Assembly (NCBI RefSeq): GCF_021390155.1
Contig: NZ_CP089985.1
Location: 1,313,001-1,377,000, forward strand
DNA length: 64,000 nucleotides
Direction of reading: 5' to 3'
From: Pseudomonas sp. HN11
GTDB taxonomy: Bacteria; Pseudomonadota; Gammaproteobacteria; Pseudomonadales; Pseudomonadaceae
Shown: in pieces, positions 3,701 to 48,219 of the stretch
Layout of the letters: each line of letters begins with the position of its first letter
How positions within the stretch are numbered: the stretch's first letter is position 1
Notes under the pieces: model-generated
Told to the model about the DNA's origin: nothing
Seen by the model: the letters and a program-made list of their open reading frames with translations, nothing else
The model's database searches: none
Position numbers and translations under genes: made by a program

Positions 3701-4606
3701 ATGAGAATCCTCGGCATTCTGTGCCTGCTACTCACATTGAACGGTTGCAGCTCACTGCTGTTTTACCCCGAGCCCGGCCTGCCGTTCACCCCGCAGAAAG
3801 CGCGCCTGCAGTACCGCGACGTCACCTTGACCACCGCAGACGGCGTAAAGCTCCACGCCTGGTGGTTGCCGGCCAAGGCCGGCGTGCCGCTCAAAGGCAC
3901 GGTGCTGCATTTGCACGGTAACGGCGGCAACCTGGCCTGGCACCTGGGCGGCAGTTGGTGGCTGCCCGAACAGGGCTACCAAGTGTTGCTGCTGGACTAT
4001 CGCGGTTATGGCTTGTCGGAAGGCAAACCGTCGTTGCCGGCGATCTACCAGGATGTGGACGCGGCGTTCAGTTGGATCGACAAGGCGCCCGAAACCCAGG
4101 GCCAGCCATTGATTGTGCTGGGCCAAAGCCTGGGTGGTGCGCTGGCCGTCCACTACCTGGCCGCCCACCCAGAGCGCCAATCCCAGCTCAAAGCATTGGT
4201 GCTGGATGGCGTGCCCGCCAGTTATCGTGATGTAGGACAATTCGCCCTGAGCACCTCCTGGTTAACATGGCCATTCCAGGTGCCCCTGTCCTGGCTGGTG
4301 CCGGACGGCGACAGTGCGATCTATGCCATGCCTCAGCTGACTAGCGTGCCGAAGCTGTTGTTCCACAGCCTGGATGACCCGATCGTGCCCGTGGCCAATG
4401 GCATTCGCCTGTACCAGGCCGCACCGCCGCCCAAGGTGCTGCAGTTGACCCGAGGCGGCCACGTGCAGACCTTTGCCGACAAGACCTGGCAAACCGTGAT
4501 GCTGCGCTACCTGGATGACCCGCAGCACTTCAACGGCCTGCGGCGGTTGGGCGAAATTCCGAACTACCCCACTCCTCACGTTGATTCATCAGAGAGCCCG
4601 CAATGA
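3701..4606 (+). CDS. Alpha/beta-hydrolase lipoprotein
   Basis: 301-residue envelope hydrolase. The signal peptide ends in the lipobox TLNGC (Cys16), so it is probably membrane-anchored and facing the periplasm. The hydrolase fold is shown by HLHGNGGNL (oxyanion loop, about residue 70), DYRGYGLSEG, the nucleophile elbow GQSLGG (Ser143), SLDDPIVP (acid region) and GGHVQTF (catalytic His). It resembles YfhR/BEM46-type serine hydrolases; the substrate is unknown. The stop overlaps the next ATG (ATGA), so the two are translationally coupled. The Shine-Dalgarno is weak. Confidence 0.85.
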   Translation: MRILGILCLLLTLNGCSSLLFYPEPGLPFTPQKARLQYRDVTLTTADGVKLHAWWLPAKAGVPLKGTVLHLHGNGGNLAWHLGGSWWLPEQGYQVLLLDYRGYGLSEGKPSLPAIYQDVDAAFSWIDKAPETQGQPLIVLGQSLGGALAVHYLAAHPERQSQLKALVLDGVPASYRDVGQFALSTSWLTWPFQVPLSWLVPDGDSAIYAMPQLTSVPKLLFHSLDDPIVPVANGIRLYQAAPPPKVLQLTRGGHVQTFADKTWQTVMLRYLDDPQHFNGLRRLGEIPNYPTPHVDSSESPQ

Positions 4607-4929
4607 GCGAAGAACGCAACATGATCCCGCTGATCCTCACCGGCATCGGCACTATCATCGGTACCGTCGGTTGCCTGTGGTACTACGGTTACCTGCACTT
4701 CGCCAAGCCGGAAGATGCGCTGTTGCTCAGCGATTTCACCCTGCTCAAGACGGTACCGGGAGAAGACTACAAGATCTCCCTGACGCCGGCCGCACAAGTG
4801 GCGCAGTGCGTGGATGGCGTGCTGGTGATGTTCGACACCGAGCAGAAAGGCTTGAGCGGTGTGCTGGTGGATAACAAAAAACAGGCGGTGCGGTGCGTGG
4901 GCCAGGAAACGTCACAGCTCCAGCAGTAA
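4603..4929 (+). CDS. Small single-pass membrane protein, function unknown
   Basis: 108 residues, start overlapping the hydrolase stop by 4 bases. One membrane segment at about residues 8-28 (PLILTGIGTIIGTVGCLWYY), then a soluble domain of about 75 residues with two Cys (QCVDG, RCVG). Met7 at 4621 is an alternative start. The coupling suggests it works with the hydrolase. A decayed second copy of this gene lies at 5330-5616. The family is unknown to me beyond conservation at this locus in Pseudomonas. Confidence 0.75.
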   Translation: MSEERNMIPLILTGIGTIIGTVGCLWYYGYLHFAKPEDALLLSDFTLLKTVPGEDYKISLTPAAQVAQCVDGVLVMFDTEQKGLSGVLVDNKKQAVRCVGQETSQLQQ

Positions 4930-4956
4930 TCCGAATGCACCGCGTGTGAAATATTT

Positions 4957-4984
4957 GGAACCGCTTTGCTTAACAGGCCACTCA
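4957..4984 (+). promoter_or_regulatory. Putative hrp box (HrpL-type ECF promoter), copy 1
   Basis: GGAACC at 4957-4962, 15 bases, then CCACTCA at 4978-4984. This fits exactly the HrpL consensus GGAACC-N15/16-CCACNNA of type III secretion genes in Pseudomonas. It lies 55 bases before the small gene at 5040. The block is duplicated at 5655. GGAAC-type -35 elements are shared by several ECF sigma factors, so the particular sigma factor is an inference. Confidence 0.65.
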
Positions 4985-5039
4985 ATGGTTTGTCAGCGTT
5001 CGTGGTGGGTAGGTGCGAACCGCCAACCAGGGGAGACTT

Positions 5040-5222
5040 ATGGTCAAGTTGGATGAGATAAGTGCGATAGAGAGGTGGGTGAAAATGTGCAGGACGCAGA
5101 GGCTGGTTGAAGCGCTTGACGAGGGCGCCGCCGAGCTTGCACAAAAGGACCTGAAGGAGCCGCGCAAAGAAAAGCCTGGATATGCAGGTTTCGAAAGCGA
5201 CGAGTCTCCGATCGAATACTAA
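5040..5222 (+). CDS. Small hypothetical protein downstream of hrp-type promoter
   Basis: 60 residues, MVKLDEISAIERWVKMC..., rich in charged residues. No signal peptide or membrane segment. The N-terminal half is probably helical; the C-terminus is acidic (ESDESPIEY). ATG at 5040 is preceded by GGGGAG (5030-5035) at 4 bases; a longer GTG start at 5013 lacks a ribosome-binding site. It sits 55 bases after an hrp-box match. Acidic residues at positions 5-6 argue against a classical type III export signal, so a chaperone-like or regulatory role is possible. No homologue is recognised. Confidence 0.55.
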   Translation: MVKLDEISAIERWVKMCRTQRLVEALDEGAAELAQKDLKEPRKEKPGYAGFESDESPIEY

Positions 5223-5257
5223 ATTTGAAAACACCACCGTTTCTGAGGGTCACAACG

Positions 5258-5286
5258 AAAAAACACCGCCTATCGAGGCGGGGGGC
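5258..5286 (-). terminator. Relic of the lptF-side terminator (unit 1)
   Basis: CCGCCT-atcg-AGGCGG stem preceded on the plus strand by AAAAAA, so the T run is kept for minus-strand reading. It is the positional equivalent of the intact hairpin at 6007-6035 and may still end transcription of the 5040 gene weakly. Confidence 0.55.
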
Positions 5287-5297
5287 ACTCCATTCGA

Positions 5298-5335
5298 TCA
5301 GTTAGCTACGGACAACCGTGGTTTGACCGGCTGAT
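5298..5335 (-). pseudogene. Relic of the 3' end of lptF
   Basis: Read on the minus strand this gives DQPVKPRLSVAN and a stop, against NDNQPVKPRSSMAN and a stop at the true lptF end (6048-6089). Homology ends abruptly at the GCTGAT shared with the membrane-protein gene. It therefore marks the junction of the tandem duplication, not a gene. Confidence 0.8.
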
Positions 5336-5616
5336 CCTCACCGGCATCGGCACTGTCGGCTGCCTGTGGTACTACGGCTACCTGCACTTTGCCAAACCCG
5401 AAGATACGCTGTTACAGCGACTTCACTCTGCTCAAGACCGTGCTGGGCGAAGACTACAAGGTGTCACTGACCCCGGCTGCCCAGGTGGCGCAGTGTGTCG
5501 AGGGTGTGCTGGTGATGTTTGGTACCGAATACAAAGGCTTGAGCGGCGTATTGGTGAATACCTAAAAGCAGGCTGTTCGCTGCATGGGGCAGGAAACGCC
5601 AAAACTGCGCGAGAGT
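5330..5616 (+). pseudogene. Decayed second copy of the small membrane protein gene
   Basis: Lacks the first codons and has no start. From LTGIGTVGCLWYYGYLHFAK it follows the gene at 4603 closely, with a 12-base deletion in the membrane segment. A 2-base deletion near 5411-5416 (CTGTTACAGC against CTGTTGCTCAGC) shifts the frame. After FTLLKTVLGEDYKVSLTP the frame recovers, but an in-frame TAA stands at 5563-5565 where the intact gene has a Lys codon. The end is disturbed by about 35 unrelated bases before the duplicated promoter block. It is clearly non-functional. Confidence 0.85.
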
Positions 5617-5654
5617 TCCTTCTCAAAAAAAATCGTCCAGCTCCAGAAATATTT

Positions 5655-5682
5655 GGAACGGTTTTGCGTAGGAAGCCACTGA
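5655..5682 (+). promoter_or_regulatory. Putative hrp box (HrpL-type ECF promoter), copy 2
   Basis: GGAACG at 5655-5660, 15 bases, then CCACTGA at 5676-5682. One mismatch to GGAACC-N15/16-CCACNNA, with the same spacing as copy 1. It lies 60 bases before the ATG at 5743. Retention of both half-sites while the neighbouring pseudogene decayed suggests the promoter is under selection. Confidence 0.55.
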
Positions 5683-5742
5683 ATGACTCGTCAGTGTGTT
5701 GCTGGCAGACAACTTACCTGTATCGATTTTGGGAGTATGAAT

Positions 5743-6003
5743 ATGTCTACAATAACGGGTGGAATTGCCCCAAGCTCCAGCTGGGGGGAAATGACCCAGA
5801 GCGCACAAAAGCTGGGCCAGGGTGGAGAGGAGGGTCAGCAAGGCGGCCAGGTAAAAGAGGAAGAGGCGAAGAAGATCATGGATATGGCTATGCAAGGCGC
5901 CGAGTCTAATCGTGCTATAGACCTCAGTAATATCGGTCTCAACGGCTCGGGGAAGGTGCCGGGCATCGACGACGACATCGGCCGTCAGATCTTCTTCTCC
6001 TGA
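5743..6003 (+). CDS. Small hypothetical protein, candidate type III secretion substrate
   Basis: 86 residues, MSTITGGIAPSSSWGEMTQS at the N-terminus. ATG 5743 has GGGAG at 5731-5735 with 7 bases spacing; ATG 5737 is too close. Ile at position 4, Ser at 2, 11-13 and 20, and no Asp or Glu in the first 12 residues match published composition rules for exported N-termini in P. syringae. A Gly/Gln-rich stretch (about 24-36) precedes a charged helix (KEEEAKKIMDMAMQG). No signal peptide, membrane segment or known domain. It is transcribed from an hrp-box match and closed by a strong bidirectional terminator. Secretion is an inference; the family is not recognised. Confidence 0.6.
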   Translation: MSTITGGIAPSSSWGEMTQSAQKLGQGGEEGQQGGQVKEEEAKKIMDMAMQGAESNRAIDLSNIGLNGSGKVPGIDDDIGRQIFFS

Positions 6004-6035: not shown

Positions 6036-6047
6036 ATGCAGCATCAA

Positions 6048-6833
6048 TCAGTTAGCCATGGAAGACCGTGGCTTGACCGGCTGATTGTCGTTGGAGATAG
6101 TCACTTCAACGCGGCGGTTCATCGCACGGCCCGAGACGCTGCCGTTGTCGGCAACCGGGTATTCCTTGCCGTAACCCTGGGTCACGATGCGCGAGATATC
6201 CACACCTTGTTGAGCCAGTGCGCGTTGTACGGAAGCCGCACGGCGCTCGGACAGGCTCTGGTTGTACGAATCGGAACCGGTGCTGTCGGTGTAGCCTTCA
6301 ACGATTACTTTACGGTCCGGGTTGTCGCGCAGGAACTGAGCCAGTTTGGTGATGTTCACCAGGCCGCTGGATTTCAGGTCGGACTTGTTAGTAGCGAACA
6401 GCACGTCACCAAACGTTACCAGGGTGCCGCGATCAGTCTGCTTGGCGTTCAGGCTGTCCTGCAGTTGCTTGATCTGTGCATCACGGGCGTCCAGCAGGGC
6501 GCGGGCACGTTCGTCGCCGGCGTTTTTCAGCTTGGCTTCGGATTCGCGCAGCACGATAGTGTCTTTGGCCACTTCAACGCGCTGGTTGGTCAGGTAGGCC
6601 AGCTGGTCGACTTTCTTCTCGTCTTCTTTGTCGCGATAGGCCTTGTCAGCCTTGTCCAGCCATTCGCTGGCGTCCTTGGTTTCCAGTGCCGCCAGCTTGG
6701 TGGCTTGCGGGTTGGTTTGCAGGGCCGAGAAGTTGGTCCGTGCGTTTTCCAGGTTCGCGTTCGGCGGGGTGGAGCAGGCCGCCAGGGCAACGCTCATCGC
6801 CAGCAGGGCAGGGATCATCAATTGTTTACGCAT
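6048..6833 (-). CDS. lptF: OmpA-family lipoprotein, LptF-like
   Basis: 261-residue outer-membrane lipoprotein. Signal peptide with lipobox ALAAC (Cys20); a helical middle region (about 25-135); then an OmpA-type peptidoglycan-binding domain at about 140-250 with TDSTGSDSYNQSLSERRA and GRAMNRRVEV. Length and gene order match lipotoxin F (PA3692) of P. aeruginosa, an AlgU-dependent surface protein linked to envelope stress survival. It is the second gene of an operon with the lipoprotein starting at 7314. Its last 12 codons are copied as a relic at 5298-5335. Confidence 0.85.
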   Translation of the reverse strand: MRKQLMIPALLAMSVALAACSTPPNANLENARTNFSALQTNPQATKLAALETKDASEWLDKADKAYRDKEDEKKVDQLAYLTNQRVEVAKDTIVLRESEAKLKNAGDERARALLDARDAQIKQLQDSLNAKQTDRGTLVTFGDVLFATNKSDLKSSGLVNITKLAQFLRDNPDRKVIVEGYTDSTGSDSYNQSLSERRAASVQRALAQQGVDISRIVTQGYGKEYPVADNGSVSGRAMNRRVEVTISNDNQPVKPRSSMAN

Positions 6834-22380: not shown

Positions 22381-22526
22381 CCATAATTTACACGCGGAGG
22401 TAAATGAGCGCCGGGGCGTAGGGAACGTCTGTAGTTTTCACTCCACTCAGATTTGCCTGATAGACAGGCGTACGGCTTCGCGGCTGCGCGGGTCGTACTC
22501 ATTTCAATCAACGTATGGAGTGTCAG

Positions 22527-29508: not shown

Positions 29509-32100
29509 TTACGCAGCCGGTGCGGGTTCCGCTGCTGCCGACGGTTTCGGCAGCGAAGACAGGAACGCCATGATCAGCGCCGCCACGTACGGCAGCGACT
29601 GCACCAGCAGCATCACCACCCAGAAGCGGATGTCATTGCTCGGCAGGCCCTGCACCAGGTAGATCCCCAGCGCCGCGCCCCACAACAGCAACATGATGAA
29701 CATCTCTTCGCGGGCTTCGGAAATTGCGACCCAGAAGCCGTGGTTATCCGCGTTTTTCGGTGTACGAAAGAACGGAATACTGGTGGTGAAGAAGCCATAC
29801 AGCACCGCCTTGGCGATGGTATGCGACAACGCCAGACCGGCCAGGGCCGCACAGAACGCATCTTTCAAATTCACGCCTACCGCGCGACGGTAGAGGAAGA
29901 TGATCTTGCCCACCTTGAACACAAACAACGCCAACGGCGGGATCGCGAAAATCAGCAGGGGCGGGTCAACCCGCGTCGGCACGATGATCATCGCCGCCGA
30001 CCACAACAGCGCGCCCACGGTGAAGAAGATGTTCATGCCATCGGCCACCCACGGTAACCAGCCCGCGAGGAAGTGGTAGCGCTGACCACGGGTCAGCTCG
30101 GTGTCCTTGCCGCGCAGCAGGCTGGCAGTGTGACGCTTGATGATCTGGATCGCGCCATAGGCCCAGCGGAAACGCTGTTTCTTGAAGTCAATGAAGGTAT
30201 CCGGCATCAGGCCTTTGCCGTAGCTGTCGTGGTAGTACGCCGCCGACAGGCCTTTCTCGAATACCCGTAGGCCCAATTCAGCGTCTTCGCAGATGCACCA
30301 GTCGGCCCAGCCCAGTTCTTCGAGCACCGAGCGACGGGTCATGGTCATGGTGCCGTGCTGGATGATCGCGTCACGGTCGTTGCGGGTGACCATGCCGATA
30401 TGGAAGAAGCCCTTGTATTCCGCATAGCAGAGCTTTTTGAAGGTGCTTTCGTTCTGGTCGCGATAATCCTGCGGCGACTGCACCACGGCGATTTTCGGGT
30501 CGGCGAAGTGCGGCACCATGTGCTTGAGCCAGTTAGGCGATACGCAGTAGTCGGAGTCGATCACCGCGATCACTTCGGCATCCTTGGCGGTGTGCGGGAT
30601 CAGGTAGTTCAGCGCGCCACCCTTGAAACCGGCCAGGGGCGCGACGTGGAAGAACTTGAAGCGCGGGCCTAGGGTTTCGCAGTAATCGCGCACCGGTTCC
30701 CACACGGCCGGATCCTTGGTGTTGTTGTCGATGATCAGGACTTCGTAGTCCGGGTAATCGAGGGCGGCCAGGGCATCGAGGGTCTGTTTGACCATCTCAG
30801 GTGGCTCGTTGTAGCACGGCACGTGGATCGACACTTTCGGGCGGTAGTCCGAATCCCCTTCAACCGGCAGGAATTCACGTCGACGCTTGTGGGTCCACAC
30901 CGCTTCCGCCAGTTCGTGGGCTTCGGTCAGCAACACGATAAACACACCCAGGGCGCCGAGGGCGAGAAGGATGCCCACGGTGACACTGAACCAGGTGCTG
31001 TATTGCTGGCTGTAGTCGTAGCCGATCCATACCAGCACCGAACCGCAGAGAAACGCGATAAAGGTCAGGAAGGTGCGGCCACGCTGGCGCAGGGCCGAGC
31101 CGTCGATCATCAACAGGGTCAGGGACAACAGCGCAAGCACCACCGAACCGATGGCCAGCACGCGCCATTGCGGGATCGCGACCACCGGCCCTTCAAAGTT
31201 GAATTTCTGCTGGCGTGCGGCGTTGTACACGCCCCAGTAAGCGCCCGCCGAGCCTTCGTCGCTGACTTTCCACGGCTGGTCGAAGGCCTCGATCACGAAG
31301 TAGTTGAAGCCCTGGCGGTTCAGCTTGTTCACCAGCGTACGCAGGTAAATCGCCTGGTCAGCCGGGGAAGTTTCGTTACCACCGCGCATGCGGCCGTTGC
31401 TCGGCCAGCCCACTTCCGACAGCAGCAGGGGCTTTTTCGGGAACAGTTTCTTCAGGTCACGGGCGCGATCGAGTACGTACTGGCCGGCCTTATCCATCGG
31501 GATGTATTCCCAGAACGGCAGGATGTGCGCGGCGATCAGATCGACGTGCTTGGCCAGTTGCGGGTTCTTTTCCCAGATGTGCCATTGCTCGGAGGTGGTC
31601 ACCGGCACTTTCACGGCGCCGCGCACGCGGTCCAGGAGCACCATCAGGGCTTCAGGGGTGATTTCTTCACGGAACAGCGCTTCGTTACCGACCACCACCC
31701 GCACGACACTGCGCGAGCTGTTGGCGATTTCGATGGCGCGCTGGATTTCCCGCTCGTTGCGCTCAAGGTCCGGGCTGATCCAGATCCCCAGCGTCACGCG
31801 CAGGCCGAACTCTTCCGCCAGCTTGGGGATATCCCCCAGGGTGCCGTCGACCGAGTAGGTACGGATGTTGTCCGTCAGCTTGCTCATGATCTCGAGGTCG
31901 CGACGCATCTGGTCGTCGGTCGGGTACTGGTCTTTCTGCGGGTACTGGCCCTGCTGGAATGGCGAGTAGGAAAAGCCGGAGATCTGTTCAGGCCAGTTGG
32001 GGGTGGTGACCGGGCGGTTGATCAGCGCCCAGAAGCCGGTGAACAGCGCGGCGATTGCCAGCACGATCACCAGGTTGAGTCCAAATTTACGCGATGCCAT
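29509..32100 (-). CDS. ndvB: Membrane glucosyltransferase with GH17-like domain, NdvB-like
   Basis: 863 residues. Order: N-terminal membrane helix (about 9-29); periplasmic GH17-like domain (about 40-320) with VVGNEALFREE and LLSEVGWPSNG, both family glutamates present; membrane segments (about 325-430); GT2 domain with VSIHVPCYNEPP, VIDSDYC, CEDAELG and KKQRFRWAYG (the D, DxD, ED, QxxRW set); then further membrane helices. This architecture and the place after dapE and rlmA match ndvB of P. aeruginosa, which makes periplasmic cyclic beta-1,3-glucans. ATG 32100 is chosen because the upstream in-frame stretch is Arg-rich and unlike protein. Product identity is inferred. Confidence 0.85.
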   Translation of the reverse strand: MASRKFGLNLVIVLAIAALFTGFWALINRPVTTPNWPEQISGFSYSPFQQGQYPQKDQYPTDDQMRRDLEIMSKLTDNIRTYSVDGTLGDIPKLAEEFGLRVTLGIWISPDLERNEREIQRAIEIANSSRSVVRVVVGNEALFREEITPEALMVLLDRVRGAVKVPVTTSEQWHIWEKNPQLAKHVDLIAAHILPFWEYIPMDKAGQYVLDRARDLKKLFPKKPLLLSEVGWPSNGRMRGGNETSPADQAIYLRTLVNKLNRQGFNYFVIEAFDQPWKVSDEGSAGAYWGVYNAARQQKFNFEGPVVAIPQWRVLAIGSVVLALLSLTLLMIDGSALRQRGRTFLTFIAFLCGSVLVWIGYDYSQQYSTWFSVTVGILLALGALGVFIVLLTEAHELAEAVWTHKRRREFLPVEGDSDYRPKVSIHVPCYNEPPEMVKQTLDALAALDYPDYEVLIIDNNTKDPAVWEPVRDYCETLGPRFKFFHVAPLAGFKGGALNYLIPHTAKDAEVIAVIDSDYCVSPNWLKHMVPHFADPKIAVVQSPQDYRDQNESTFKKLCYAEYKGFFHIGMVTRNDRDAIIQHGTMTMTRRSVLEELGWADWCICEDAELGLRVFEKGLSAAYYHDSYGKGLMPDTFIDFKKQRFRWAYGAIQIIKRHTASLLRGKDTELTRGQRYHFLAGWLPWVADGMNIFFTVGALLWSAAMIIVPTRVDPPLLIFAIPPLALFVFKVGKIIFLYRRAVGVNLKDAFCAALAGLALSHTIAKAVLYGFFTTSIPFFRTPKNADNHGFWVAISEAREEMFIMLLLWGAALGIYLVQGLPSNDIRFWVVMLLVQSLPYVAALIMAFLSSLPKPSAAAEPAPAA

Positions 32101-47412: not shown

Positions 47413-48219
47413 ATGCTTAAACAACGAATCATCACAGCACTGATCCTGTTGCCGATCGCCTTGTGTGGGTTTTTCCTGCTCGAGGGTTCCGGTTTTGCGC
47501 TGTTTATCGGCCTGGTCGTCACCCTGGGTGCCTGGGAATGGGCGCGCCTGGCGGGTTTCAGCGCGCAATTGCCGCGTGTGGTGTATGCCGCTGTCGTGGC
47601 TGCCTTGGCGTTCCTCCTGTACATCCTGCCGGACATAGCACCCTGGGTGTTGGGGGCGGCGGTGTTGTGGTGGGCGCTGGCGACATTCCTGGTGTTGACC
47701 TATCCGGGCACCAGCGGCAAGTGGTCCAGTGTGGCCTGCAAGCTGGTGATTGGTTTGTTGATCCTGCTGCCGGCGTGGCAGGGGTTGGTGGAAATCAAGC
47801 GTTACCCCATGGGTAACTGGCTGATCCTGGCGGTCATGGTGCTGGTCTGGGGTGCTGATATCGGCGCCTACTTCGCAGGCAGAGCCTTCGGCAAGCGTAA
47901 GCTGGCACCCGCGGTCAGCCCCGGCAAGAGTTGGGAGGGCGTATATGGTGGCCTGGCGTTGACCCTGGTGATCGCACTGGTCGTCGGCGTTGTGCGTGGC
48001 TGGTCGGTGAAGGAAATCTTCCTCGCGCTGCTGGCCACGGCCATTGTCGTATTCATCTCGGTGGTGGGTGACCTTACCGAGAGCATGTTCAAGCGTCAGG
48101 CCGGGATCAAGGACAGCAGCAACCTGCTGCCGGGTCATGGCGGCGTGCTGGACCGTATCGACAGCCTGACTGCGGCCATCCCGATCTTCGCTGTGCTGCT
48201 GTGGATGACTGCTTCGTGA
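47413..48219 (+). CDS. cdsA: Phosphatidate cytidylyltransferase
   Basis: 268 residues, inner-membrane enzyme forming CDP-diacylglycerol. About eight membrane segments, first at [18 protein letters not shown]. Signature near the C-terminus: [20 protein letters not shown], then [16 protein letters not shown] 47413 begins right after uppS. The stop TGA overlaps the dxr GTG. Confidence 0.97.

Follow-up and report, generated by a model that had tools for sequence, protein, structure and literature searches.

We consider it probable that two conserved chromosomal loci of Pseudomonas sp. HN11 carry promoters read by RspL, that the small genes behind them are exchanged among relatives, and that the products are harpin-like substrates of the Rsp type III secretion system. 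The stretch analyzed, hereafter called the window, is 64,000 nucleotides long (1,313,001 to 1,377,000 of a 6.27-Mb single-contig genome). It belongs to the Pseudomonas fluorescens subgroup, as judged from a tree of its ompA-side flank in which it sits closest to P. simiae, P. canadensis, and P. reactans. In the proposed mechanism, RNA polymerase carrying RspL, an extracytoplasmic function (ECF) sigma factor of the HrpL type, would read the boxes and start transcription a few bases past CCACNNA. Each box would then yield a short transcript and one small protein, made together with the Rsp apparatus, exported by it, and possibly acting at the host interface. At slot 1, bounded by a PA3694-family gene and ompA, these core-gene walls and the promoter between them are conserved across the subgroup while the small gene is exchanged or diverges, and strains hold one or two box-gene units. 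The window would thus hold a native-like short type and a P. poae-like second unit that brought part of its flank. The products are predicted to be small, acidic, mostly Gly-rich, and Cys-poor.

A preliminary description of this DNA had reported two hrp-box-like sites of equal spacing, each 55 to 60 bases before a small gene with a good Shine-Dalgarno sequence, in a window free of type III secretion genes. Direct reading bears this out. The two sites have the same spacing and lie 698 bp apart in tandem units, the ATG follows after 55 nt (box 1) or 60 nt (box 2), both genes have GGGAG-type Shine-Dalgarno sequences, and the three PF00771 matches of the genome all fall outside the window. A further box, absent from that earlier list, brings the total to three boxes at two conserved loci (Table 1). 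Compared with the consensus GGAACC-N15/16-CCACNNA, box 1 is exact, and boxes 2 and 3 have G at position 6, as does the box before an rspA-like open reading frame (ORF) elsewhere in the genome. The ORF forming the right wall of slot 1 is one that we take to be of the OmpA family. For P0002, the ATG at 5683 was rejected as the start because it abuts box 2; the start at 5743 gives the 60-nt spacing known from relatives.

Table 1. Features of slot 1 and slot 2 in the window (window coordinates)
Feature	Position	Strand	Basis
PA3694-family gene, intact, left wall of slot 1	4603..4929	+	NCBIfam NF053721, E 7e-37
hrp box 1, GGAACC-N15-CCACTCA	4957..4984	+	direct reading; exact box here in 62/62 subgroup loci
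Small gene 1, P0001, 60 aa, "short" type	5040..5222	+	65% / 58% identity to L051 / L075 ORFs
42-bp remnant of an ompA 3' end, junction of the second unit	5294..5335	-	aligns to 6044-6085
PA3694-family gene, decayed second copy	5324..5610 (right end approximate)	+	local alignment
hrp box 2, GGAACG-N15-CCACTGA	5655..5682	+	direct reading, pattern scan
Small gene 2, P0002, 86 aa, divergent class A1	5743..6003	+	A1 profile; DNA nearest L109
OmpA-family lipoprotein-like gene (presumed), right wall of slot 1	6048..6833	-	ORF; relatives by tblastn
hrp box 3, slot 2, GGAACG-N15-CCACTCA	22422..22449	+	pattern scan
Small gene 3, P0005, 81 aa	22527..22772	+	ORF begins 77 nt past box 3

Motif counts were rejected as evidence in their own right. 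Four matches to the 28-base pattern fall in the window, where 0.26 would be expected and none of 100 shuffles gave more than two. With a slightly looser pattern, the whole genome gives 54 matches against 84 for a reversed control and thus no enrichment. The motif alone therefore weighs little, and the case rests on conservation in relatives. When the surroundings of all 54 genome matches were inspected, many fell in long open frames, and about 19 preceded an ORF that by eye resembles a slot gene, rspJ or rspA, or a type III candidate rich in Ser and Pro. Two window matches were set aside: one at 29562 lies inside a 300-codon open frame on the opposite strand and is probably due to chance, and one at 47462 lies inside a 417-codon open frame.

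Slot 1 was compared across 80 loci from named Pseudomonas, which the PA3694-family gene upstream of box 1 retrieved as the best matches among 393 relatives. An exact GGAAC-N15/16/17-CCACNNA box was present within 250 nt past the PA3694-family gene in 62 of the 80 loci (L049 to L110). The remaining 18, from cichorii, chlororaphis, fragi, lini, and other lineages, had no exact box within the same 250 nt. In 15 of these 18, those in which an OmpA-family gene was found, the gap between the PA3694-family gene and ompA measures 69 to 207 nt. Both strands of this gap were scanned in the box-positive loci, and boxes occurred on the plus strand only. Among 119 permuted motif pairs used as a control, the best was found in 16 loci (the same motif one base off), the next in 6, and the one after that in 1. 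The 62 loci contain 76 boxes, 74 of 28 bases and 2 of 29 bases, and 14 loci have two box-gene units. Half-sites are constant and spacers vary, with little information at most spacer positions. Position 6 is C in 67 of the 74 slot-1 boxes of 28 bases; G at this position, as in box 2, occurs in only one of the 74, that of L109 (P. poae). In two loci (L051:4324-5941 and L075:4324-5950), the P0001-type gene is followed by two more ORFs rich in NYGN-like repeats, the first of which is preceded in both by a near-box, GGAAC-N16-CCACTGC.

The gene flanking slot 2 is presumably DUF4197-like, and an exact box was found within 1,500 nt to the left of this gene in 20 of 30 sampled subgroup genomes. The other 10 had no exact slot-2 box, which counts against our reading. 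In 18 of the 20, the box lies at 388 to 511 nt, as in the window; in L143 and L154 it occurs only near 1,200 nt. The ORF begins 79 to 85 nt past the box in 20 of 22 cases, and the ORFs fall by eye into at least five dissimilar types (that of L149 was probably taken in the wrong frame). P0005 has a homologue in 6 of 79 named genomes; in five of these the box is exact and lies in the corresponding position, and in the sixth it has one mismatch. Right after the box, P0005-like genes such as those of L129 and L130 have a TGCCTGATGGACAGGC-like leader, possibly a small hairpin.

The preliminary description had made its promoter reading depend on an HrpL/RspL-like sigma factor in the genome and had proposed looking for a secretion cluster as well; both are present. 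RspL is encoded on the minus strand at 783525-784076, approximately 511 kb from the window edge; its 183 residues match ECF sigma structures. The gene adjoins an rsp/rsc type III cluster that has hrp boxes of its own. Divergent from rspL is rspJ, with the box GGAACC-N16-CCACACA at 784281; rspL is followed by rscV and further rsp/rsc genes; and the rspA-like ORF, of approximately 62 codons, has the box GGAACG-N15-CCACACA at 800642. The name rscV rests on a PF00771 match, the other rsp/rsc names on position, size, and the published cluster, as far as described in the sections available (PMC6647874). RspL and HrpL are reported to share 50% identity, and their similarity reaches 82.5% within region 4.2 (PMC2997014, in part). 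A sigma factor gene near 2,074,927 was rejected as HrpL since by eye a FecR-like ORF comes next. A second, unrelated type III export gene at 3791932-3794010, outside the window, is 41% identical to RscV and probably belongs to another type III secretion system.

RspL was found in all 61 box-positive genomes searched (L085 was left out) at 75 to 98% identity, in G270 over residues 81 to 180 only. An Rsp-type rscV of at least 80% was present in 59 of the 61, the gene being partial or interrupted in G264, G285, G289, and G304; G270 and G299 had no Rsp-type rscV at E 1e-130. In the 18 box-negative genomes, RspL-like matches reached 85% (L112), 66 to 67% (L121 and L124), and 47 to 48% (L111, L116, L125, and L127), and in the other 11 no more than 38%. 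Several genomes count against the RspL reading: L112 lacks a slot-1 box despite its RspL and rspJ box, L121 and L124 lack one despite RspL-like genes, G270 retains a slot-1 box and ORF alongside a truncated rspL, and G299 is without an Rsp-type rscV. The exact rspJ box was present in 29/29 scorable genomes of 31 given, box-negative L112 among them. The underlying table has 32 rows, those outside the 29 being L225 (contig end), L235 (truncated rspL), and L236 (same genome as L230); G256 was unscorable since its contig ends there. This co-occurrence supports RspL control but does not prove it, because the box-positive genomes are close relatives and not independent. The boxes had been described as orphan members of an HrpL/RspL regulon, and this assignment is well supported for RspL: the slot-1 box is conserved (62/62 subgroup loci), the genome encodes RspL and an Rsp cluster, and rspJ carries the same motif. 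Strain PA-4-7F (G270, locus L235) has an intact slot-1 box and ORF even though its rspL has lost the start and has no rspJ next to it, and even though no rscV was found. This strain is a natural type III secretion loss strain.

The small genes behind the slot-1 boxes turn over rapidly. A quick tree was built from 1,400 nt of the ompA side for 62 relatives and the window, and five cargo types, assigned by us, were mapped onto it. They require at least 25 changes, where 4 is the least possible and shuffled assignments average 34.9 (as low in 0 of 200). Thus, cargo tracks kinship in part, with fast turnover. The second unit of the window was also examined. It had been noted that both half-sites survive although the adjoining duplicated gene is decayed; the PA3694 copy is indeed decayed, but the unit is not a plain duplicate. 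Aligned over 4622-4999 and 5324-5697, the two units are identical in 293 of 390 columns, box included. From the PA3694 copy to the ATG, the second unit comes closest to L109 of P. poae, at 83% over 425 nt, with the next best at 77%. Its identity to the first unit is 75%, and the first unit in turn is nearest to L075 and L051 (88% over 440 nt). Gene 2 is also nearest to L109 by DNA; as proteins, L093 and L109 are level. The simplest reading is that the second unit would be a second allele from another lineage.

Composition and starts were surveyed in 76 slot-1 ORFs, leaving out the two of the window and keeping the wrong-frame second ORF of L082; at least two second ORFs, those of L072 and L082, were mis-chosen, and start statistics lean toward ATG with a Shine-Dalgarno sequence, which the ORF choice prefers. 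Harpins are Gly-rich, acidic proteins lacking Cys. Class A, the Gly-rich ORFs (50/76), comprises 70 to 127 aa with 17 to 35% Gly and an ATG 51 to 63 nt past the box; all 50 are free of Trp, 46 are free of Cys, and 49 have a pI below 6. Because it is Gly-rich and nearly always acidic and Cys-free, we regard class A as harpin-like. The other 26 ORFs are not Gly-rich and have 46 to 79 aa; 14 have GTG starts, many near 35 nt, and at least one is a wrong-frame pick. P0002 fits the harpin-like pattern (17% Gly, no Cys, pI 4.5), and P0001 does not (5% Gly, one Cys).

Class A1 and the short types share IxAIxxMLxMARxQ-like N-terminal and MPxxDxxRxI-like C-terminal stretches. An A1 profile built without P0002 scored all 12 short ORFs tested (12 of the 22 in A3 besides P0001) above all of their own shuffles, and we therefore treat A1 and the short types as one superfamily. 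A point to the contrary is that L051 did not rise above shuffles when scored with a profile of only the GTG-type class. P0001 is a clear member through its L051 and L075 relatives. P0002 scored 13.4 bits with the A1 profile, where none of 300 shuffles exceeded 9.8, and was not above shuffles with short-type profiles. Class A2 is alike in composition only, and its profile recognizes neither P0001 nor P0002.

By their point estimates, most pairs tested show coding selection. The dN/dS of P0001 with its L051 and L075 partners is 0.40 and 0.47, and the three P0001-type pairs range from 0.35 to 0.47; 12 of 13 other pairs range from 0.06 to 0.81, and one, with 15 differences, gives 1.39. In total, the ratio is below 1 in 15 of 16 pairs, a set that leaves out P0002, which has no close partner.

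Neither P0001, P0002, nor P0005 matched a Pfam or NCBIfam family above its cutoff. Against Pfam, class A1 and the short types gave weak, scattered matches only, and class A2 gave scattered matches to 59 families, with a best E of 5.6e-5 and with many coiled-coil or low-complexity models among them. The listed Pfam matches of A1 and A3, and the first 25 of the 59 families listed for A2, include no harpin family. The NCBIfam search covered the window proteins and class A1, and A1 gave nothing convincing. Searched against 5.8 billion proteins, the A1 profile retrieved 46 entries (8000 candidates scored), including P0002, and every given name was "hypothetical protein." As single queries against the same proteins, P0001 and P0002 retrieved only themselves, and among 249 genomes drawn from the genus P0002 was found in its own genome only. 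Such ORFans can be placed by promoter and position.

Termini were scored in 77 of 78 ORFs, with the wrong-frame second ORF of L082 left out and P0002 taken in a longer, 106-aa reading. The N-terminal rule (at most one acidic residue in 12, with a small aliphatic residue or Pro at position 3 or 4) held for 59 of 77 slot-1 ORFs and 15 of 38 control ORFs; P0002 fits and P0001 fails. Export of the slot proteins by the Rsp apparatus is tentatively suggested by the harpin-like composition and the N-termini, and P0001 does not fit. A C-terminal [IV]x[FYW] occurs in 37 of 77 slot-1 ORFs, compared with a mean of 0.4 in shuffles, in related rows that are not independent cases. A hydrophobic-x-aromatic ending is common to many slot-1 and slot-2 ORFs of dissimilar types (e.g., window 5214-5219).

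A further explanation is that the boxes arose by chance, or that a local duplication copied a single match that has yet to be lost. In its favor, the two units stand in tandem at a 698-bp offset, and the pattern is not enriched genome-wide. We give this explanation next to no weight: it is already contradicted by the comparison, in which all 62 subgroup loci have the box, the other 18 lack it, and the spacers vary, and a local copy fits poorly with a second unit closer to P. poae (83%) than to its neighbor (75%). An ECF sigma factor other than RspL with a GGAAC -35 element might also read the boxes. The genome has 29 Sigma70 region-2 matches, many of ECF size, and G270 keeps its box despite a truncated rspL. 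Still, this is improbable, as CCACNNA at this spacing is the hrp box given in the available sections of PMC6647874, rspJ, next to rspL, has this motif in front of it in every scorable genome, and in 11 of the 18 box-negative genomes RspL-like matches do not exceed 38%.

Another rival, although unlikely, accepts RspL promoters and takes the slot proteins to be structural (e.g., a variable pilus or needle part) or to belong to the regulon without being secreted. In its favor, Hrp systems have small, variable pilus subunits. The WCS417 cluster appears, in the available description, without the needle gene rspA (PMC6647874), and P. syringae has variable HrpL-dependent genes that are not effectors (PMC3879358, in part). 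Set against this, the cluster of the present genome already contains an rspA-like ORF with a box, and a Gly content of 17 to 35% together with many dissimilar types, at slot 2 as well, would be a poor fit to a structural part. We prefer RspL promoters driving exchanged genes for harpin-like Rsp substrates.

The arrangement resembles the P. syringae HrpL regulon, as far as the available text of PMC3879358 describes it, in its ECF sigma factor, CCAC hrp box, genes outside the cluster, and gain and loss between strains. It differs in that P. syringae promoters erode and genes come and go, whereas here the promoter stays and the small gene changes type. Hypothetical genes predicted to depend on RspL have been listed for P. 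fluorescens A506, SS101, BG33R, WCS374, WCS417, and WH6 in the available parts of PMC3390384, PMC6647874, and PMC2997014. In these too, small hypothetical genes located outside the cluster follow an hrp box; unlike those genome-by-genome lists, the present loci have a fixed slot, a shared family, and cargo exchange. The WH6 box tabulated there for PFWH6_1252 is one base off the slot-1 boxes of L059 and L093, so a slot-1 member has probably been tabulated already. Within the portions of the literature searched, supplementary tables aside, we found neither a fixed slot whose cargo is swapped nor the slot-1 protein family described. Class A resembles harpins (HrpZ, HrpN, and similar proteins) in being Gly-rich, acidic, Cys-poor, and hrp-box driven. 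It differs in being shorter, in having no listed Pfam harpin match, and in its gene lying outside the cluster.

Type III functions in plant-beneficial pseudomonads "remain enigmatic" (PMC3390384, in part), and slot 1, with an RspL-type promoter and an unnamed protein family, is a concrete candidate for what these systems export. The clusters of WCS374 and WCS417 are described, in the sections available, as having no translocation gene such as rspZ (PMC6647874), which may leave room for a displaced helper protein. We tentatively suggest, and rate as possible though on balance doubtful, that the slots are fixed RspL promoter sites whose alleles are swapped between species by recombination in the walls, that slot 1 encodes a new hypervariable harpin-like superfamily filling in for translocation or helper proteins that were not found in the Rsp cluster, and that slot 2 does likewise with several dissimilar types. 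Elsewhere in the genome, clusters of exact boxes before Ser/Pro-rich ORFs (1970000-1974000 and 2078900-2083000) look like further members of the Rsp regulon.
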